From NCBI GenBank assembly GCA_903834925.1, contig CAILLA010000088.1:1-64000 (forward strand): a stretch of 64,000 bases of DNA. Direction: 5' to 3'. The translations under genes and the position numbers were made by a program. This DNA comes from an uncultured Schlesneria sp. Its GTDB lineage: Bacteria; Planctomycetota; Planctomycetia; Planctomycetales; Planctomycetaceae. Within the stretch, counting starts at the first letter, position 1, and the number at the start of each line of letters is the position of its first letter. Positions 8,919-19,477 of this stretch are shown here, one piece after another. The notes beneath the pieces were generated by a model that did no database searches, was not told the origin of the DNA, and worked only from the letters and a program-made list of their open reading frames with translations.

Positions 8919-9782
8919 ATGGAGCGCACCGTGATGAAATTGGCAGGAAGCTCGAAAAGCGTCATTCTCAAGATACCAACGGCAACAGTAGCCGAAGACG
9001 GTCTCGTTGATCATGACTTGACGTTGGTTATTCCAGCATATAACGAAGAATCTCGACTGCCGAAAACGCTGGCCGATGCCAAGGCGTATCTTGAAAACTG
9101 GGGAATCAATTACCGGGTCCTTGTCGTCGACGACGGTAGCAGCGACGCGACTTCGACGATCTCGTCGTCCTTTGGTCGCCGCTTCTCGACGATGTATCAG
9201 CCAAATGGCGGCAAAGGATCTGCCGTCCGAAACGGAATGATCGCGGCGACCGGGCGTGTTGTTGGTTTCACCGATGCGGATCTGCCGTACGATTTAGACG
9301 CTTTGAAATCGGCATACGAGACAATTTCAGCGGGTAAGCGGGACGTCGTCTTCGGAAGCCGCACAGCCGAAGGAGCCAAGTCAAACGTTGAGCGGCAATG
9401 GATGCGAACCCTGGCCTCATTCATTTTTCGCTCATTCATGGCGTTACTTGTCTCACGAAAGGTGACCGATACGCAATGTGGCTTGAAGGTTTTTAGCCGC
9501 CGAGCCGCGCGGAAAATTTTTTCGCGAGCAACAGTAAACGGTTTCGCATTTGATGCAGAGGTCGTCTATCTGACACATCTTCTCAAACTGTCGTTCGAGA
9601 AAGTGCCGGTCACACTGGTGAACGACTATTCGACGACGATTTCGCTGACGAGAAATGCGATTCCAATGTTGATGGATGTTGTCGGAGTCCGCATCCATTC
9701 CTTGTTGAATGGATATCATCCGCAAATTGATGTGATTCCGGCCACCGAAGCAATTCCGCCAGCAGCCACGAAAGCAGCGTAA
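8919..9782 (+). CDS. GT2 glycosyltransferase, dolichyl/polyprenyl-phosphate sugar synthase type
   Basis: This 287-residue GT-A fold enzyme resembles ALG5/dolichyl-phosphate glucosyltransferases, which move a sugar from a nucleotide donor onto a polyprenyl phosphate at the inner face of the membrane. Visible motifs are LVIPAYNEE (residues 37-45), VVDDGSSD (69-76), the GGKGSAVRNG loop near 97-106, the metal-binding TDAD (118-121) and the family mark DTQCGLKVFSRRA near 184. There is a short amphipathic patch near 158-175 but no C-terminal transmembrane pair. An alternative ATG lies at 8934. Its stop codon overlaps the start of the deacetylase gene (TAATG), so the two are translationally coupled and likely act on the same lipid-linked sugar. 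The donor sugar cannot be read from sequence. Confidence 0.87.
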   Translation: MERTVMKLAGSSKSVILKIPTATVAEDGLVDHDLTLVIPAYNEESRLPKTLADAKAYLENWGINYRVLVVDDGSSDATSTISSSFGRRFSTMYQPNGGKGSAVRNGMIAATGRVVGFTDADLPYDLDALKSAYETISAGKRDVVFGSRTAEGAKSNVERQWMRTLASFIFRSFMALLVSRKVTDTQCGLKVFSRRAARKIFSRATVNGFAFDAEVVYLTHLLKLSFEKVPVTLVNDYSTTISLTRNAIPMLMDVVGVRIHSLLNGYHPQIDVIPATEAIPPAATKAA

Positions 9783-10840
9783 TGCCGGTTCACGCCGAAT
9801 CCAACCGCCGAAACACGCCCGAAGCTCTCCAAAGTCGATCGGGGGGGTTAGACGGTTTTCGCGATCGCTCACGTTTTGCCGGGCGTGGTTCGAATTCCAC
9901 TCAAGTTCGACGCGTCGTTTTTCATGCAGACGATTTCGGCATGAACACTGCCGTCAACCTGGGAATCTTGTCTGCGTTTCGAGACGGACTGCTGACTAGT
10001 ACATCGATTTTGGCAAACGCTCCCGCAGCTGAAGTTGCCTGTCATCAGTGGGGGAAATTCGTTATTGAACACGCGTCAGGAGCTTTTGAATCATCCGAAA
10101 AGCGACGTCAAGTTTCCGAGCAATCTTTGCTGTTTGATCTTGGAATTCACCTCAATCTGACCCAGGGGCGTCCGCTGACTGGGGAACAATTCCCTGCGGT
10201 GTTGCTCGACCCGAACGGGAATTTTCCTGGAATCGGAAAACTGTTCGCTCGACTGAATCTCGCAACTTCAGCTCAGCTCAAAGGTGTTGAAGCGGAACTT
10301 CACGCACAGGTTGAGTGGATGTGCGATCACGGGTTTCGGCCAACGCACCTGAATGGGCATCAGTACATCGAGATGATCCCTCAGGTCTCTATGATGGTTC
10401 CCCGGATTCTCCGCCATTTTTCGATCGGGACCGTCCGCGTTGCGCTCGAATCCGGACTCGTCCGCAACGTCTTGTTTCGGGGCGATATTGCAGGATGGGG
10501 CCTGGCGCAAGTGAAACGACATTTTGCGAAAAGCTTTCGTCGTCAGATGATTCGAGCAAACGTCTCGTTTACCGATCGCTTTTTTGGAACGTCGCACGCG
10601 GGTCGAATTGATCGTCAATTGATCTCCCGATTCTTAACGCAGTCGTTAAACGCTGGAACGATAGAAATTGGCGTTCATCCCGCCGTCCCATTCACAGCGG
10701 ATCATCTTCCATCCAGTGATCCCTGGTTCGACCCGCTGGCAAAATCGCGACCAATGGAACTTCAGTGGCTCTGTGATAACAGCCTCGTTGACGAGTTGAT
10801 GGCGCGGGGGTTCGGTCTCGGTCGGCTTGGTTCGCTTTAA
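9782..10840 (+). CDS. YdjC/ChbG-family carbohydrate deacetylase (HpnK/NaxD-like)
   Basis: The 352-residue protein has the YdjC-family metal-dependent deacetylase motifs: HADDFGMN (48-55) with the Asp pair, GIHLNLTQGRPL (His123), and THLNGHQYIEMIP with His189 and His193. Family members remove the N-acetyl group from sugars: ChbG acts on chitobiose, HpnK is placed in hopanoid side-chain synthesis, and NaxD acts on undecaprenyl-phosphate-GalNAc. About 40 polar residues precede the conserved core, so a later start is conceivable. The ATG overlaps the upstream GT2 stop by one base. With a polyprenyl-sugar GT2 directly coupled, a NaxD-like activity on a lipid-linked aminosugar is the best inference. 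A hopanoid role is less likely because no hopanoid genes are near. Confidence 0.85.
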   Translation: MPVHAESNRRNTPEALQSRSGGLDGFRDRSRFAGRGSNSTQVRRVVFHADDFGMNTAVNLGILSAFRDGLLTSTSILANAPAAEVACHQWGKFVIEHASGAFESSEKRRQVSEQSLLFDLGIHLNLTQGRPLTGEQFPAVLLDPNGNFPGIGKLFARLNLATSAQLKGVEAELHAQVEWMCDHGFRPTHLNGHQYIEMIPQVSMMVPRILRHFSIGTVRVALESGLVRNVLFRGDIAGWGLAQVKRHFAKSFRRQMIRANVSFTDRFFGTSHAGRIDRQLISRFLTQSLNAGTIEIGVHPAVPFTADHLPSSDPWFDPLAKSRPMELQWLCDNSLVDELMARGFGLGRLGSL

Positions 10841-11144
10841 GTCCCTTTCGCCACGGCATTCAACGCCTGACAATTGACTTTATTCAATCTTGGTTCGGCA
10901 AATATGGACCGAGAACAGACCTGACTTGATTGTACAAAAAGCCTGAGTTGTGCAGCGTGACTTGATTTCATCAATCTGCCCATTGCCGTCATTTTTCCGC
11001 TTTTTTTGTAAATAACGCCGCGCCATCGATCGATTTTTCCGGTTGCGACAACATCGCGGGCAATTCCCGCAAATTCAGTGTACGAGGCGGAAAAATCGAA
11101 TTGGATTAGTTGCCTGTTGTCGTTTTGCATGCAATCTTGAGATC
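10841..11144. other. Intergenic, no gene seen
   Basis: About 300 bases between the deacetylase and the next + strand gene. It has a T-rich stretch near 11001-11010 but no hairpin before it, so I see no clear terminator. The 5' extension of the following reading frame (from 11043) runs into it without a ribosome site. Confidence 0.4.
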
Positions 11145-11783
11145 ATGCTCAAGATCTGCCAAACGCCGTTCCCGCAATCGACGCTCAGTTATGTCGCGCT
11201 TCGCGTTGCATTCCTGCAAACGTTCGAAATTTTTGCCCAACAAAGGCTCTTAATGGGAGAAGACTCCGAGTCGCACGGATATCTTCGTGAAGTGCCGTTT
11301 CTGCAAGAAGTAGCCCCAGCCGTTCAACTTGAATTGCTCGCATCGACCTGGAACAAGCATCAAAGCCGGGATATTCATCGATCAGATTTGGTTGATGAAA
11401 GTGTCATCTATGCGGCGTGTGAGGTCGCTGCTCGGGCGGTTGAAAACGATCCAGAATTTGTTCTGCGATCGCTCGCTGGTGGTCCTGTCGATGTCACGAT
11501 TCCGCTGGATTCGTATTTTGCCCGAGAACTTCGCCTGCTTTACCTCGAACTTCCGAATGATTGTGACTTTCTACTGGTCAGCCAATTCCTGGATCTTGAT
11601 CCTGAGGACGCGATCGATCAGAAGCTTCAGATGGGTATTGATCCAAACTGCATGTTGCCAATGTTCGATGCGCTGGGGCGTTGGCATGTTTCGCCTCAAA
11701 TGATCGGTTTTCTGCATGGACTATTGACCGAAGCGGAAATTGCTCGTGTATCAACAATCTTGCGAGTATCGTGTTTGACGTGA
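11145..11783 (+). CDS. Unknown conserved-looking cytoplasmic protein
   Basis: I do not recognise this protein of about 212 residues. It is acidic and mostly helical, has no signal peptide or membrane segment, and contains a patterned stretch (ESVIYAACEVAARAVENDPEFVLRSL) followed by a run of Asp/Leu-rich helices. The start is uncertain: the frame is open from 11043, ATG 11145 is taken here, and ATG 11253 (preceded by AAAGG) is an equally good choice and would begin MGEDSES. It lies between the deacetylase and the large GT-C/TPR gene on the same strand, so it may be co-expressed with them. Confidence 0.6.
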   Translation: MLKICQTPFPQSTLSYVALRVAFLQTFEIFAQQRLLMGEDSESHGYLREVPFLQEVAPAVQLELLASTWNKHQSRDIHRSDLVDESVIYAACEVAARAVENDPEFVLRSLAGGPVDVTIPLDSYFARELRLLYLELPNDCDFLLVSQFLDLDPEDAIDQKLQMGIDPNCMLPMFDALGRWHVSPQMIGFLHGLLTEAEIARVSTILRVSCLT

Positions 11784-11996
11784 TCATTGATTTGCAAGGT
11801 CTGAATCCTGCAAGGCGAGACAAAAAAGAACCGCCTCAAGAACGCAAGTATGCCTCATCGCTGCGATCAATCGCCGAACTGCCCAACGATTTCTACTTGC
11901 TTGACGTAAGCGGCAATTGGTCCGGTTAGTTGACCCGCGAAAAAGAAGCGGCGTACCATCCAGCAACTGGCATCATTGTTTCCGTTCGACACTTGC

Positions 11997-14900
11997 ATGA
12001 GCGACATCGTGACCGAATCATCCGACGAATCTGTTGAGCCCAAATCTGCCGCGAATGATCCGTCTGTCGAGAATCCGGATGGATCAGCTTCCGTTGATCA
12101 ACGGCCTGATCAGACGATTCCTCCCCTTGCTCCCGAAGACGAGGGGCTGCCAGAATGGGAACCGCTGACCCCCGAATTGGTTGAGGACGAAGCCATTCGC
12201 GGTGATTTCGTGATTCGATGGGTTGTCGTCGGTTTGGCATTGCTACTTGGGATTTCTCAGATCTCTGAGACTCGAACCCTGCTGCACTTGAAAAGTGGCG
12301 AATATCTGTTAAGCCACGGCTTTTTGCCGGGTTCCAAAGACGTCTTGTCATTCACCGCGAACGATCGCAAGTGGGTCAATTTGTCGTGGATGTTTGACAT
12401 CGCCACGGCAGGTGTCTTTTCCATTGCAGGCGGAGTCGGTCTTTCGATCGTTCAAGGGCTGCTGGCGGGTTTAACGTTTGGGCTGATTGTGCATGCCGTG
12501 CGTCCGAATATTCGGACGTGGTGGGGGTCACTTTGTGCCGTACTGGCGCTTCTGGTTTGTTACACCCAGTTTACGGTTCAGCCAGAACTGGTCACGCTCC
12601 TTGGTCTCAGTTTTGTCTTATGGACCCTGATTCGGTCTGACGAACCAGGTCAATCAGGGCGACTTTGGCTGCTGGTCCCGGCTCTTTTGGTTTGGGCTCA
12701 ATTCGATCAGCGGGCGTGGTTTGGCTGGTTCTTATTACTGTTGTGGGCGGCAGGAGACTTCTTCTTCCGCAAGAGCACGACGTTAAACGAGAAGACTCCG
12801 GTGGGAACGGTTGCGATCTTGTCGTATGCGGTGGTTGCCATCCATCCATTCTTGTGGGAATCATGGCTGGCGCCTGTTCGGTTGTACCTCACAGATTATC
12901 CCGCTTTTCGGTTTGCCTATCCGCAGCCTTCACCGGCAGACCAGGTTTTTCATGAGATCTGGAAGCCATTTTTCTGGCGATCGATTAACCATAGGGGAAT
13001 TGCAGCACTAATTCTTGCTGCCGCCACGGTCGTAACATTTGTGTTAAATGGATCGCGTTTACGTTGGTCGCATCTTTGTGCCTTCGTTGGCTTCAACGTA
13101 TTAAGCCTTTTTGCCACGCATGAACTGGCCGCCGCCAGTCTGGTCAACTGCGTTCTCAGCACGATTAACGCCCAAGAATGGTATCGAGAACGCTTTGGCC
13201 AGGTTTACTCGATTGATTGGCGCGAGTTACTCTTTTCACGCGGGGGACGGGCTGTCACCGTCGTCAGTTTCTTCGCGCTTGCGTGGCTGATCTTAAGTGG
13301 TCGTATTGATGGTCCAGGGGGCAAACGAACAGGACTGGGCTTCGACGGTCAACTCGCAAGTGCGATGAGTGGATACCAAAGGCAGAATTTTCATCTTGTC
13401 GACGATCAAGCATTCAATTTTTCTCTCAGACAAGGCGACCTGATGATCTGGGGTGGACTGAAGCCATTTGTCGACAGCCGTGCGGGCCTCTACTTTGGCA
13501 ACGCGACGACGAATTTGCTGGATGTCCACAATAAGACTCGTCAGTCTCTGCGACAAAAACGAGATGGCATCGATCCATCCAGCGAACCGACCTACTGGAA
13601 AGAGATCTTTGATAAATATCAGATTCGTCAGGCATGGCCACGTTTAACCGGTCCGTTTCAGGTTCCCGATTACTCGACGTTTCATGCATTGCTGTCGACG
13701 CCAGAGTTTGAATTGAGCGATCTCAATTCGGCAACAGCGATCTTCCTCCGAAAAGAAAACAACGATGAAACGGTCGCTTCGAATCTGAAAGACCATTCAT
13801 TCGATCTGATTGTGCAGGGCTTTCGGACTAAGCCAGAGCGCATCGAAGATGTCACGCGAGAATGGTCCAAGCCTGCCAGTACGTACGATAATCTGTTCTC
13901 GTTGCGTCGTCCCAATGATCCTGCTGGAGCACAGTTGGGTCAGCACTATGTTAACTTGATGGTGGTCGGTCAAGGTCCCCAAACGATCGCCAGTGCTCTA
14001 ATGGCGATCCGGAATGCGAATGAAGGGCTGCGAAGCGATGCCAATTCGGCCGAAGCATACCGGGTACTGGGCCTGTGTTACACGATTGTCGGACAATTGG
14101 AATCGGCAATCCTTTCCCAGCCTGGGGCACCGCCAAGCGGTCCAAATCTTTTGCGATACTATCAGGCTGTTGCGGCGCTCCATCAGGCAAACTCTTTGAA
14201 GCCAGGCGATAGCGGCATCAATCAACTGCTCATGCAAAATTATCGATCGACGAACAAACAGGACATTCAACTCGATCTGATGAAGAAGCTGAAACAACTG
14301 CGGCCTTATTCGAAGTCGATGACAGTTGATCAGCGTCAGGAGAGGGAAGGGATCGTCAATGCCATCGATCAGTTGTACGAGCCTGTCGCTCAAGTGGAAA
14401 CGTTAGTCGAAAAGGCGATGAGCGAAGGTATGGATCGATTTCAGGTCGCTGCCCGTGCGTATCAGATGGGCTGCGTTTTGTTGGCCGTGAAGACGCTGGA
14501 AGAAGATGCGATCTATCTTGAGAAAAACCCGCAAGCAAAGCTGGTTTTAGGAAGCTGGCTGATTGAAGTGGGTCGAGGGCGCGAGGCGGAATCAATCATT
14601 GAGAGTCTCGAAGGCTTTGCCGCCCAAAATGCACTGTCGGGGTGGCAAGATGCCGCAGCAATCTATGCATTGACGGTCGCGAATTACTCCCGCGCGATCA
14701 AAGTCTGGGGAGATCAACGGGATGCTGCTGCGACGACTCCCATTGTTCAAACCATGTTTACTCTACCGTTTCTGACGCTGAATCCACTTTGGATGGGCCC
14801 CGATGCCTACCCAACTTCAAACTTGGGGGCAACCGCTCAAGTCATTCAGGGGGTTCGTCAGGAAGGAGCACTGGCAACTTATCAAATCGCACTGGCACAG

Positions 14901-15134
14901 ATGGAGGCGGGAATGGTCGACGAAGCCACTGCTTCGGTCAGACGCGCCATTGAGCTTTATCCCAGTTCTCCACTCAGGCCGGTTCTCCGTTTTTATCTCG
15001 GGTGCCTGACCGGAGAACAAATCGAACTAAAGCTACCGGAATCAGAATCGCAAGTCGAAGAACTGTTCGATCTGGCTGAACCTGAACCTGAACCCGAGAC
15101 CAAAGCCGAGCCGGAAGCGAAAAAAGAAAAATGA
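11997..15134 (+). CDS. Polytopic GT-C-like membrane protein with C-terminal TPR region
   Basis: This protein has 1045 residues from ATG 11997; an in-frame TTG lies 21 bases upstream. After an acidic, disordered N-terminus of about 70 residues come some 10-11 transmembrane helices to about residue 440. The first long loop has the pattern LKSGEYLLSHGFLPGS..LSFTANDRKWVNLSWMFD. It resembles the catalytic first periplasmic loop of GT-C glycosyltransferases, which take sugars from polyprenyl phosphate, but the usual acidic residue is not clear-cut (KDVLSF). The rest, about 600 residues, is soluble. It has TPR-like helix pairs (for example near 690-760 and 880-990) and ends in a Glu/Pro/Lys-rich tail. 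In this context it could be the transferase using the lipid-linked sugar made by the GT2/deacetylase pair. A purely structural TPR protein is the alternative. Confidence 0.7.
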   Translation: MSDIVTESSDESVEPKSAANDPSVENPDGSASVDQRPDQTIPPLAPEDEGLPEWEPLTPELVEDEAIRGDFVIRWVVVGLALLLGISQISETRTLLHLKSGEYLLSHGFLPGSKDVLSFTANDRKWVNLSWMFDIATAGVFSIAGGVGLSIVQGLLAGLTFGLIVHAVRPNIRTWWGSLCAVLALLVCYTQFTVQPELVTLLGLSFVLWTLIRSDEPGQSGRLWLLVPALLVWAQFDQRAWFGWFLLLLWAAGDFFFRKSTTLNEKTPVGTVAILSYAVVAIHPFLWESWLAPVRLYLTDYPAFRFAYPQPSPADQVFHEIWKPFFWRSINHRGIAALILAAATVVTFVLNGSRLRWSHLCAFVGFNVLSLFATHELAAASLVNCVLSTINAQEWYRERFGQVYSIDWRELLFSRGGRAVTVVSFFALAWLILSGRIDGPGGKRTGLGFDGQLASAMSGYQRQNFHLVDDQAFNFSLRQGDLMIWGGLKPFVDSRAGLYFGNATTNLLDVHNKTRQSLRQKRDGIDPSSEPTYWKEIFDKYQIRQAWPRLTGPFQVPDYSTFHALLSTPEFELSDLNSATAIFLRKENNDETVASNLKDHSFDLIVQGFRTKPERIEDVTREWSKPASTYDNLFSLRRPNDPAGAQLGQHYVNLMVVGQGPQTIASALMAIRNANEGLRSDANSAEAYRVLGLCYTIVGQLESAILSQPGAPPSGPNLLRYYQAVAALHQANSLKPGDSGINQLLMQNYRSTNKQDIQLDLMKKLKQLRPYSKSMTVDQRQEREGIVNAIDQLYEPVAQVETLVEKAMSEGMDRFQVAARAYQMGCVLLAVKTLEEDAIYLEKNPQAKLVLGSWLIEVGRGREAESIIESLEGFAAQNALSGWQDAAAIYALTVANYSRAIKVWGDQRDAAATTPIVQTMFTLPFLTLNPLWMGPDAYPTSNLGATAQVIQGVRQEGALATYQIALAQMEAGMVDEATASVRRAIELYPSSPLRPVLRFYLGCLTGEQIELKLPESESQVEELFDLAEPEPEPETKAEPEAKKEK

Positions 15135-15325: not shown

Positions 15326-15790
15326 ATGACTGGATCTCGCTGGACTTCACTAGGTGCCATCTTCTGTCTGTTTTCCGTGGCATTCGGTGCATTTGCGGCA
15401 CACGGACTCGATAAAGTCTTCGTGGAAAAGTACGCGGGCCGTACAAAGGAAGTTGGCGGACAGACATTGCCTATGGCCGCTAAATTCTTAAATGACTTTA
15501 AAACCGGGGCAGAGTACCAGATGTATCACGGCCTCGCCCTAATCGCCGTCGGCTTAATCTTAGAACGCCGCCCGTCCCGCGCGGCGAGTATCGCCGCATG
15601 GCTATTTGCCGCCGGAATCGTTTTGTTTTCCGGAAGTTTGTATGTCCTCACACTAACAGGTGTCACAAAGTGGGGTGCAGTAACGCCCCTGGGTGGCCTG
15701 GCCTTTCTGGCTGGCTGGTTCTTTCTTTCGCTAGCCGCGTTAGGAAAACCCGCTGCTGTTGTGAGCAGGTCTCCCGACCTTACACACTGA
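15326..15790 (+). CDS. DUF423 family membrane protein (YgdD/TMEM256-like)
   Basis: This 154-residue inner-membrane protein has four hydrophobic helices (about 7-25, 70-85, 92-112 and 122-142). It has the DUF423 features GAFAAHGL after helix 1, YQMYHGLALIAVGL in helix 2, and GGLAFLAGW in helix 4. Family members average about 125 residues. The extra length here is in the first loop (KYAGRTKEVGGQTLPMAAKF). The biochemical role of the family is not established. The ATG follows AGGAAAGG at a normal distance. It stands alone between a palindromic repeat and the convergent chitinase gene. Confidence 0.9.
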   Translation: MTGSRWTSLGAIFCLFSVAFGAFAAHGLDKVFVEKYAGRTKEVGGQTLPMAAKFLNDFKTGAEYQMYHGLALIAVGLILERRPSRAASIAAWLFAAGIVLFSGSLYVLTLTGVTKWGAVTPLGGLAFLAGWFFLSLAALGKPAAVVSRSPDLTH

Positions 15791-16024: not shown

Positions 16025-18379
16025 TCAAAACGTTTCGAAGATCGATGAGAATTCCCATTGCTTCTGCACGATACTACTGCTGGTCGTATCAACGTAGGTC
16101 TTGGCTGTTGTGCTCGCGGTATCGCGGTTGAGCGACCAGATCGAGATTCGCCCCATCCCCTTCTGCTCGGCGAAGGCCAGCAGTTCGCTGGCGGCATTCA
16201 GATCGAACGTTTCGGTAGTCACGTCATTCAGTCCGATCATGGGTGTGACGCCAATCATAGTCCACAATTCCGCACTGGTCTTACTGGTTCCATATAGCGT
16301 GCTTAACTGATTGAACAGACTGTTGGCGGAATCGATCGCGTAATTGCCCATCTGTTTCGCGGGACTCGGAGCGGCGCTGTCGCCGTAATCCATCGCCATC
16401 ACGTTAATGCCGGCAATCTGCACGCCGTACTTAAGGGCCGATTGCACTACGTACAACCCGTCTGCAGTCAACCCCGTGGGAAGCACGGGAAGGGTAAACC
16501 AGACCTGCAGTTTAGTGCCGGCCGTAGCGGCATTTTGTTCCAGTGCCGCCAGGGCCTGCGAACGACGATCAATCGCAGCATGGTCCGCCGACGCCGCGCC
16601 TTCGATGTCGAAATCCAGGTGAGTGATATTGTAGGCGCTGACCACCGTCTGATACGCCGCCGTCAATTGGGTGACATTGGTGATCTGCTGGGCCAGTTCC
16701 GCATTCGACGCTCCGCCGAATGAAACCATGACGTCGCCCCCCGCAGCCCGCAAATTGGTGATCTGCTGCCTAAGCGCCATGTCAAAGCTCCCGCCGTTGA
16801 CTTCATACTGGGTATATCCACCCCAACTGGGCTGATTGTTGGAATCGGCCACGATGAAGGCTAGCGAGAAGTATTTGATTTTTCCGGTGGTGGCGGCCGT
16901 CACGAGGTTGAAGGTCGGGTACAGCGTCATGTCGACGTAAGGGGCGTAGAAACTCGTCGGCCAGTTCGTGCTGGTCGTCGCCTGCGCTACTGTGATCGCG
17001 ACATTGGCCGTGGCTGTCCTGCCGTGGCCGTTGCTCACAGTATAGGTAAACGAATCGTTCCCGGTGTAGCCGGTCGTGGGCGCGTAGGTGACCGTGCTAT
17101 CGGCGTTAAGGACGGCGGTCCCGTGCTGGGGGATTGTGACCGCTGTGACGGTCAGCGAAAATCCGTTGGGATCAGAATCGTTGGCCAGCACATTTATGAC
17201 TTTGGCCTGGTTGACGATCGCTGAGACCGAATCATTGGCGGGTGTTGGTACCTGGCTCGTGCCGCCACCACCACCTCCGCCTCCGCTCTGCGTCCCTACC
17301 CAGGCATAGTTGGTCGGGCCGACCGTTACGTTACCGGGACTGCCGTCGAAGCCGATCGAGACGTTGGCACCGGGCTGGATCGTGCTGTTCCAACCGGCGT
17401 TTTGAATGATGTAATGATTTCCGACATGGCTACTGATCGTCGCGTTCCAGATCGATGTAATTTGGCCTGGAAAATCGAAACCGAGCTGCCAGTTGGTGAT
17501 CGCCGTCGTGCCGGTATTCGTGGCAGTGATCTGACCGCCGAATCCCGTCCCCCAGTCACTGGTCACGGTGAATTGGAAGTTGCCGCCGGACGATGCGGCC
17601 GGATTTTTAATGGTGCCGGTCGCCTGTGTCCGGCTGAGGGTAGCACCCGAGGGATTGCTGAGCGTGAGATTGAAGGCAGTCGTCGCGGCCGCTGTCGGTT
17701 TGCTCAGCACCGACACATTGATCGTCGCTTGCGTCTGACCCGGCGCAAAGGTCAACGTTCCACTGGCAGCCTGATAGTTCACGCCTGCGACCGCCGTGCC
17801 GTCTGATGTCGAATAGGCCACGGTGATTGGCGTGGTTGCCGCCGCAGACAGCGAGACCACGAACGGTTCGCTCACTGATTGGGTCGCCGACTCGGTCACG
17901 GAGCTGTCAGCAATAGAGAGCGTCGGTAAAGCGGTCGTGTTCCCCAGCGCAGCTCCATTCAATTTGTAATTCGACGGATTGCTGGCACTGGAACCGGTGG
18001 CGACGAAACCAAACGCCACGTTCCCCTGTGCAGGGAGATCCTGGTCCCAGCTAAGGCCCTGAATTAGATAGTGATTGCCGGTGTGGCTGACAACCTGGGC
18101 ATTCCAGATCGATGTGATATTGGGGGCGTAATCGAACTCAAGCTTCCAGTTCGACACCGCTGTAGTCTGAGTGTTATTCAGTTGCATCTGAGTCTGGAAA
18201 CCCGAGCCCCAATCGCTGGTAACCGTCATGCCAACGCTGACGCCGGACATTAAAGAGCGAGTTTCCAGAATTTCGACCTGAGCAGACTGAATTGTCGGCA
18301 CAGCAAACCGACGCTTACGGCTTCGACTCCCTTTTGGTGACAGTAGCCACGACACGAACACTTTGGAAAGACTGGTCAT
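16025..18379 (-). CDS. Secreted multidomain chitinase (GH18 with CBM2 modules)
   Basis: The 784-residue exported glycoside hydrolase has these parts in order. An N-terminal planctomycete export region with a basic patch is followed by the motif LETRSLMSG (about 35-45). Next come a CBM2 carbohydrate-binding module (about 46-145), a Calx-beta domain (about 150-260), a second CBM2 (about 262-360), a glycine linker and a cadherin-like/Big-type module beginning TPANDSV. The C-terminal GH18 catalytic domain follows (about 465-784). The GH18 signature reads HLDFDIEG with the catalytic acid at Glu593. It should cut chitin or a related beta-1,4-N-acetylglucosamine polymer outside the cell. The start is ATG 18379, set by AGGAGG on the - strand; the frame stays open 99 bases further through a degenerate repeat. 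No other chitin genes are adjacent. Confidence 0.9.
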   Translation of the reverse strand: MTSLSKVFVSWLLSPKGSRSRKRRFAVPTIQSAQVEILETRSLMSGVSVGMTVTSDWGSGFQTQMQLNNTQTTAVSNWKLEFDYAPNITSIWNAQVVSHTGNHYLIQGLSWDQDLPAQGNVAFGFVATGSSASNPSNYKLNGAALGNTTALPTLSIADSSVTESATQSVSEPFVVSLSAAATTPITVAYSTSDGTAVAGVNYQAASGTLTFAPGQTQATINVSVLSKPTAAATTAFNLTLSNPSGATLSRTQATGTIKNPAASSGGNFQFTVTSDWGTGFGGQITATNTGTTAITNWQLGFDFPGQITSIWNATISSHVGNHYIIQNAGWNSTIQPGANVSIGFDGSPGNVTVGPTNYAWVGTQSGGGGGGGGTSQVPTPANDSVSAIVNQAKVINVLANDSDPNGFSLTVTAVTIPQHGTAVLNADSTVTYAPTTGYTGNDSFTYTVSNGHGRTATANVAITVAQATTSTNWPTSFYAPYVDMTLYPTFNLVTAATTGKIKYFSLAFIVADSNNQPSWGGYTQYEVNGGSFDMALRQQITNLRAAGGDVMVSFGGASNAELAQQITNVTQLTAAYQTVVSAYNITHLDFDIEGAASADHAAIDRRSQALAALEQNAATAGTKLQVWFTLPVLPTGLTADGLYVVQSALKYGVQIAGINVMAMDYGDSAAPSPAKQMGNYAIDSANSLFNQLSTLYGTSKTSAELWTMIGVTPMIGLNDVTTETFDLNAASELLAFAEQKGMGRISIWSLNRDTASTTAKTYVDTTSSSIVQKQWEFSSIFETF

Positions 18380-18394
18380 TGAAACCCCTCCTGA

Positions 18395-18475
18395 AACGTG
18401 AGAAACGAGAAGTGTGAGACGCGAGAACCGAGCGACATGAGACGTGAGAAATGTCAGGCGTGGGGCATGTGAAAG
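18395..18475. repeat. Degenerate short tandem repeat upstream of the chitinase gene
   Basis: On the + strand the words GTGAGA, GAGAA and TGAGAC recur every 7-12 bases (for example ACGTGAGAAACGAGAAG, GTGAGACGCGAGAAC, ATGAGACGTGAGAAATG). It lies just upstream of the chitinase ribosome site, in its probable 5' untranslated region. Confidence 0.5.
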
Positions 18476-19477
18476 CACATGTTGCGCCAGTGGTGTTAAA
18501 TCCTATTTTCCATAAAGCGAAAGCGAATTATTGAAGCTGTTCGAGATGAAGCATGCAAAACGGAATCAAATGCCGCAGTAGTCTGCGCCGTTTGTACAAT
18601 CCTGCGTCTAGTTGCGAGAAGTTCTTGAGAGATTATAAACACCAAATAACAGTCAGTGTTGCTTCCATTACTATGGAAACATAGGCAAGACGAATTTGTC
18701 ATCATTAGTGGATGACATTTTTATTATCGAGCACGATCTGTTTGTGTCGGCAGCGATGAACCATTATTAGCTAATGGATTTCGCTCGGATTATTCAGCAT
18801 TTTCCACGATTCGACGCGCGATCAACATCGATCAAGAGTTAATGCATCGTCACACACAGCAACGTGAAACGTTAGACTGACGCGTGATCAATGGGTATTC
18901 AGCTTCGCCTGAGTGCTCAATATCATGAACAAACAAGTTCGAGTCAGTCCTTCCATGATACTGGAAATACGAAAACGTTCCTGGATTCATCCAGTGCAAT
19001 AGCATCCTTGCGGCCCATTTCACTGGTCACTATCGGTCTGTTGAAGACAGGTAAGCACGGCGTACTTCGCTTTCATTTCCAAATAGGAGCAGCCGTCGCT
19101 TCTGATTGTTGTAGTCGAATCCAAGCATTGTCAACACGAAACCGAAACGGCGTAAGTGTTAAAGTGAGAAAACTGAAAACGGGATTCGTTCGGTGTCGCC
19201 GGGTAACCCCATCCGGTAAGACCATGGCCGTCGAATGGAGTGAGAGTTGTATTCTTACTTGTTTCTGATGAGGTTCACTGATTTAATGACAGGCGGAAAG
19301 ATGGTATCTCGCGTTTCGTTCTGTGATTTCCTGGCGTTCTTCGTGTCTTTCATGAGAACGAATACTTTGCTTCTTCAGGAGTAGCAATGAGGTTTCAACG
19401 AAGCTTCATGCTGGCCTGATGAAATGAAGAAAAGAGTGTTTGAGGTGAAGAAAATGAGATTTCCAGAGTCACATTAT
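18476..19477. other. About 1 kb without a recognisable gene
   Basis: AT-richer than its surroundings, especially 18600-18760. Reading frames on both strands are short or have atypical composition; the 125-codon + strand frame at 18891-19268 has no ribosome site and no family resemblance. It probably holds the chitinase promoter and perhaps remnants of decayed sequence. I see no transposase fragment, tRNA or array. Confidence 0.5.

Follow-up and report, generated by a model that had tools for sequence, protein, structure and literature searches.

In Francisella, FlmF2, NaxD, and FlmK act in that order. In the ArnC/ArnD/ArnT pathway, ArnD is a polysaccharide-deacetylase-type deformylase and not a YdjC-family protein. 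GT-C membrane domains that are accompanied by TPRs occur in TMEM260. The role of NaxD, which is also found in Acinetobacter, has been described (PMC10927774), and parts of the FlmF2/NaxD/FlmK scheme are covered by other studies as well (PMC4688374, PMC8149597). In the mycobacterial galactosamine pathway of PpgS (Rv3631) and Rv3779, polyprenyl-P-GalNAc feeds a GT-C enzyme (PMC3485146), and a GT-C membrane domain with TPRs has been reported for TMTC1 to TMTC4 (PMC7801869). The outer-membrane chemistry of planctomycetes is poorly known; a related planctomycete requires its lipid A genes for viability (PMC10632474).

The locus described here is located in a 64,000-nucleotide stretch of DNA from an uncultured Schlesneria sp. 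(the window). A first-pass annotation had tentatively assigned four ORFs to a single aminosugar pathway comprising a GT2, a YdjC-family deacetylase, a TPR-bearing GT-C transferase, and one additional protein, and all four ORFs are present (Table 1). Judged by sequence comparison, the GT2 and YdjC genes are a genuine conserved module of the FlmF2/NaxD kind, as had been proposed.

Table 1. Predicted features of the GT2-YdjC locus and its surroundings
Feature	Coordinates	Strand	Basis of assignment
Multi-pass membrane protein upstream of the pair, 1180 aa	5255..8797	+	No Pfam match
Putative GT2, DPM/Alg5-type polyprenyl-phosphate sugar synthase, 287 aa	8919..9782	+	Pfam PF00535, conserved motifs
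Putative YdjC-family N-acetyl-hexosamine deacetylase, 352 aa	9782..10840	+	Pfam PF04794, metal/catalytic residues
Conserved planctomycete protein, outside the module, 212 aa	11145..11783	+	Distribution
Predicted GT-C-fold (STT3/PglB-like) membrane protein with C-terminal TPR region, outside the module, 1045 aa	11997..15134	+	AlphaFold, Foldseek, VIA-align

The GT2 protein matches Pfam Glycos_transf_2 (E value, 7e-27), and no membrane segment was predicted in it. Its best NCBIfam matches are the polyprenyl-phosphate sugar synthases PpgS, AglJ, and ArnC, all far under the cut-offs (for PpgS, the top match, 55.5 bits against a cut-off of 370), in keeping with the resemblance to such synthases noted before. 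The motifs DDGS, DADLPYDL, DTQCGLK, and FAFDAE are conserved across the GT2 proteins of 24 relatives, the last two largely so. The DTQCG and FD.E elements recur in the nearest named relative found, a protein from Deinococcus that carries the annotation dolichyl-phosphate beta-glucosyltransferase (37% identity). Measured against this one annotated protein and the general features of Alg5, the DTQCGLK and FAFDAE motifs resemble those of Alg5-type enzymes.

The product of the second gene matches Pfam YdjC (E value, 1.7e-47). Its metal and catalytic residues (D50, D51, H123, H189, H193, and H299), which had been recognized as complete, are invariant in 24/24 YdjC homologues. A second, distinct, full-length YdjC-family protein is encoded in the same genome (locus L001; G000:C58:17783-18568). 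The literature match for planctomycetes combined with YdjC concerned sediment degradation and not a lipid-linked aminosugar system.

The two genes are closely associated. The ATG of the YdjC gene and the stop codon of the GT2 gene have one base in common (position 9782), which bears out the stop-on-start overlap reported for this pair. At an E value of <=1e-30, YdjC was present in 24 of the 150 genomes of the order and GT2 in 26, namely, the 24 YdjC-bearing genomes plus G076, in which the contig ends within the GT2 gene, and G118, in which the GT2 match is a weak paralogue. GT2 adjoins YdjC in all 24 of the YdjC-bearing genomes, and 17 of these loci offer a YdjC start codon with a 1- or 4-base overlap with the end of GT2. 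In this count, the start nearest to the GT2 stop was chosen for each locus, a choice that favors overlap. Well-supported groups are common to the GT2 and YdjC trees, which elsewhere disagree weakly. The arrangement suggests that GT2 and YdjC are probably translationally coupled; a scan for promoters and terminators yielded signals not above chance level. Among 343 genomes drawn from the phylum, a set apparently short on known carriers, YdjC was detected (E value, <=1e-20) in the window's own genome only. In four other genomes (G053, G055, G043, and G088), the pair precedes a different conserved gene set, and the gene arrangement in the window therefore looks derived.

The neighboring genes have other distributions. 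The 212-aa protein, which begins with an ATG encoding a conserved first Met, has no match in Pfam or NCBIfam, and its predicted structure, made from 8 sequences, has a pLDDT of 65, too low for a structural search. It was found in 132/150 genomes of the order versus 24/150 for the pair, which it adjoins only in the window genome and the three genomes nearest to it; we rejected it as a member of the module, and its earlier placement in the pathway is not upheld. The 1180-aa protein upstream of the pair is present in 85/150 genomes, many of which lack the pair, and adjoins the pair in seven Schlesneria genomes; it was rejected as a module partner for being non-specific. Beyond the TPR gene, a DUF423 protein (15326 to 15790, plus strand) adjoins that gene in four close genomes, and the gene at 16025 to 18478 (minus strand) encodes a large surface protein that carries CBM2, Calx-beta, and cadherin-like domains and weakly matches GH18 (chitinase type).

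The gene for the TPR protein starts ~1.16 kb past the deacetylase gene on the same strand, close to the 1.1 kb given previously. The long TPR region attributed to its product is clear in relatives (TPR_19 in 13/27), whereas the match in the window protein itself is weak (E value, 1.7e-4). A GT-C-like first large loop had also been suggested, and the AlphaFold model of residues 56 to 640, built with 66 homologues (pLDDT, 87.1; pTM, 0.88), is in agreement with this. The top Foldseek and VIA-align matches of the model are STT3, PglB, and AglB. The Z score was 21.5 for STT3 (474 aligned residues with an rmsd of 4.3 and 11% identity), higher than the 15.0 for ArnT; middling Z scores are usual among helical proteins, and the value of 21.5 stands above that level. 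As judged from the predicted structure, the TPR protein is of the GT-C fold and nearest to STT3/PglB. The residue at position 91, in the first extracytoplasmic loop, is acidic (D or E) in 58 of the 66 homologues and Q, R, or H in the remaining 8, and D115, D134, D481, D493, and R495 are invariant in the same alignment. The WWD acceptor motif is absent from the TPR protein in the alignment as read by eye, and the stretch set opposite it by eye contains the invariant D481 and a near-invariant Q-G-D-x-L-I-W sequence. Neither the Pfam STT3 domain nor the Pfam TMTC domain was matched by any of the 27 family members.

Candidate transferases of a different type were identified beside the pair in other genomes. 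GT87 genes adjoin it in four Schlesneria genomes (G073, G050, G105, and G093) and in G144, which belongs to another genus; a more distant GT87 adjoins it in G083, and PMT/ArnT-like genes do so in G029, G149, and G144. The pair locus in the window has no ArnT-type (GT83) transferase, and an ArnT-like gene is located directly behind the pair in G029 and G149. The GT87 gene of the window's genome (G000:C146:2398-3531) lies outside the window. Because this gene is unlinked to the pair there and in eight other Schlesneria genomes, nine in all, its proposed role in these genomes rests on co-distribution. A GT87 homologue is present in 13/13 Schlesneria genomes with the pair and in 0/2 without it. 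Across the order, GT87 was found at an E value of <=1e-50 in 18/24 pair genomes versus 5/126 others, a cut-off that was picked after the hits had been seen and a co-distribution that is inflated by shared ancestry. The Fisher value for this contrast takes no account of kinship and, given the cut-off picked afterwards, does not represent a probability. The GT87 tree has the same main groups as the trees of the pair. A clear GT87 relative is lacking in some pair genomes (G080, G116, and G113). In the last of these, a gene near the pair (L084:680-2494, minus strand) encodes a 604-aa polytopic protein with C-terminal TPRs and a TMTC-type-like architecture.

In G144, the pair, GT87, and a PMT-like gene are found together just beyond a break in synteny. 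The left half of this contig matches the congener G070 (86% to 92% identity of flanking genes), and the match ends before the module, which speaks for a joint gain. The pair is absent from all seven G144 congeners searched; G144 is a fragmented metagenome-assembled genome, and G070 is the one congener that matches the sequence immediately preceding the break. We regard the GT87 at G000:C146:2398-3531 as the most likely candidate for the pair's transferase in the window lineage.

The explanation that we prefer, with moderate confidence, is that a polyprenyl-P-HexNAc synthase and a deacetylase operate with an exchangeable GT-C as a variant of the FlmF2/NaxD/FlmK plan, the TPR and 212-aa proteins next door being unrelated to it. 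The pair probably loads an acetylated aminosugar on a membrane lipid and then deacetylates it for use in the cell envelope. On the cytoplasmic side, GT2 would load polyprenyl phosphate with an N-acetylhexosamine taken from a UDP-sugar, and deacetylation by YdjC would yield polyprenyl-P-hexosamine, which is positively charged. This lipid would be flipped across the membrane, and an integral-membrane GT-C would transfer the hexosamine to an envelope acceptor. The GT-C would most likely be GT87 in the window lineage, and in G029 and G149 it would be the ArnT-like protein. This explanation is based on the pairing, the overlap, the active-site residues, the distribution, the matching trees, and the neighboring or co-distributed GT87, and the enzyme activities are predicted. 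The presence of GT87 without the pair in five genomes and the lack of a clear GT87 in some pair genomes (G080, G116, and G113) argue against it.

According to the first-pass annotation, GT2, YdjC, and the TPR-bearing GT-C, along with the 212-aa protein, would form one pathway with the TPR protein as its transferase. The genes are on the same strand within a span of 6.2 kb, the fold predicted for the TPR protein is GT-C, and the order of the pair and the TPR gene is kept in four close genomes (the window's and its three nearest relatives). A core GT-C such as the TPR protein could also take the product of the pair in trans, which is compatible with the distribution. However, the TPR protein is present in 140/150 genomes versus 24/150 for the pair, and the two share a contig in 5/24 pair genomes (the four close genomes and G053); in G053, a complete genome, they are 1.3 Mb apart. 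In the other 19 pair genomes, they are on separate contigs and are not neighbors on the stretches read. The pair is nearby in just 3 of 80 named TPR loci, many of which are short, and elsewhere other genes come after the pair, with GT87 or ArnT-like genes beside it. The check set beforehand, co-occurrence of the three genes across related genomes, breaks down at the third gene. We rejected the TPR protein as a pathway member, and a single pathway including it appears highly improbable. As part of the preferred explanation, the TPR and 212-aa proteins would be unrelated core genes that were brought near the pair by rearrangement in one small clade.

The remaining alternatives concern the substrates of the pair. 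YdjC could be HpnK-like and deacetylate a GlcNAc that is bound not to polyprenyl phosphate but to another lipid, such as a hopanoid or other glycolipid, with GT2 making that glycolipid directly. All 23 YdjC members scanned match the HpnK model, and the window protein scores higher with HpnK (114.6 bits) than with ChbG (96.9 bits) and has an H-x-N-x-H motif, closer to HpnK than to the H-x-D-x-H of ChbG. However, its HpnK score is about half of the cut-off (232.6 bits), GT2 is of the DPM/Alg5 type, and neither HpnI nor the radical-SAM protein HpnJ was recognized among the family-assigned neighbors of the pair, many neighbors being without a family assignment; we consider this possibility quite unlikely. 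A function of the pair in soluble chitooligosaccharide or peptidoglycan-fragment metabolism would fit the fold and residues that YdjC has in common with ChbG, but the ChbG score is also below its cut-off (227 bits), and the ChbG loci inspected adjoin 6-phospho-beta-glucosidase genes, unlike the window YdjC with its conserved GT2 partner, which makes such a function very improbable. With both scores under the curated cut-offs, YdjC was rejected as a ChbG or an HpnK. Glucose is the usual sugar of Alg5-like GT2 enzymes; if this holds here, YdjC would have nothing to deacetylate in the preferred pathway. GT2 might then produce polyprenyl-P-glucose or mannose, with YdjC modifying another, downstream product of the same glycan. 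The annotation of the Deinococcus relative as a dolichyl-phosphate beta-glucosyltransferase is in line with this, as are Alg5-clade bacterial enzymes such as WsfH, which have been tied to glucose (PMC4973528). However, the strict pairing and coupling better suit consecutive steps, and the top NCBIfam match, albeit weak, is the GalNAc enzyme PpgS; this alternative seems unlikely.

If the preferred explanation is true, GT2-YdjC would be a compact cassette that can be transferred and whose GT-C can be switched, and positively charged envelope aminosugars would be expected in Schlesneria and a few relatives. It also names GT87, not the neighboring TPR gene, as the transferase candidate, which guides the choice of the gene to delete. 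The near-universal STT3-fold TPR protein, for which we found no described function in the literature, is of some interest as a target in its own right. A broader and rather doubtful proposal is that the TPR protein is one of a class of STT3-fold GT-C transferases with TPRs, found throughout the planctomycetes, that glycosylate secreted proteins or envelope glycans without a WWD sequon reader and that GT2-YdjC-GT87, distinct from this class, is an aminosugar cassette that can move horizontally and exchange its GT-C.

Among known systems, the STT3/PglB/AglB oligosaccharyltransferases resemble the TPR protein in its predicted GT-C fold followed by a globular domain and perhaps in the mostly acidic position 91, whereas the TPR protein has low sequence identity to them, lacks the Pfam STT3 match and WWD, and has an extra TPR region. 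Its family also differs from TMTC1 to TMTC4 in lacking the Pfam TMTC domain. HpnK, the hopanoid glucosamine deacetylase, shares the YdjC family and the H-x-N-x-H motif with the window protein, which scores under the HpnK cut-off and has no hopanoid genes recognized among its family-assigned neighbors. PpgS of the PpgS/Rv3779 pathway is the top NCBIfam match of the window GT2, but at 55 bits versus 370; we know of no YdjC partner described in that pathway. ArnC/ArnD/ArnT share with the proposed pathway the order of lipid loading, N-acyl removal, and GT-C transfer, whereas the window GT2 reaches 47 bits with the ArnC model against a cut-off of 529. FlmF2/NaxD/FlmK differ in that the GT2 here is Alg5-like and without a predicted membrane segment, the GT2 and YdjC genes overlap, and the likely GT-C is a GT87 unlinked in the window genome, the acceptor in Francisella being lipid A. 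The pathway proposed here follows theirs in its plan, in which a GT2 loads a HexNAc on undecaprenyl phosphate and a YdjC-family deacetylase and then a GT-C transferase follow.
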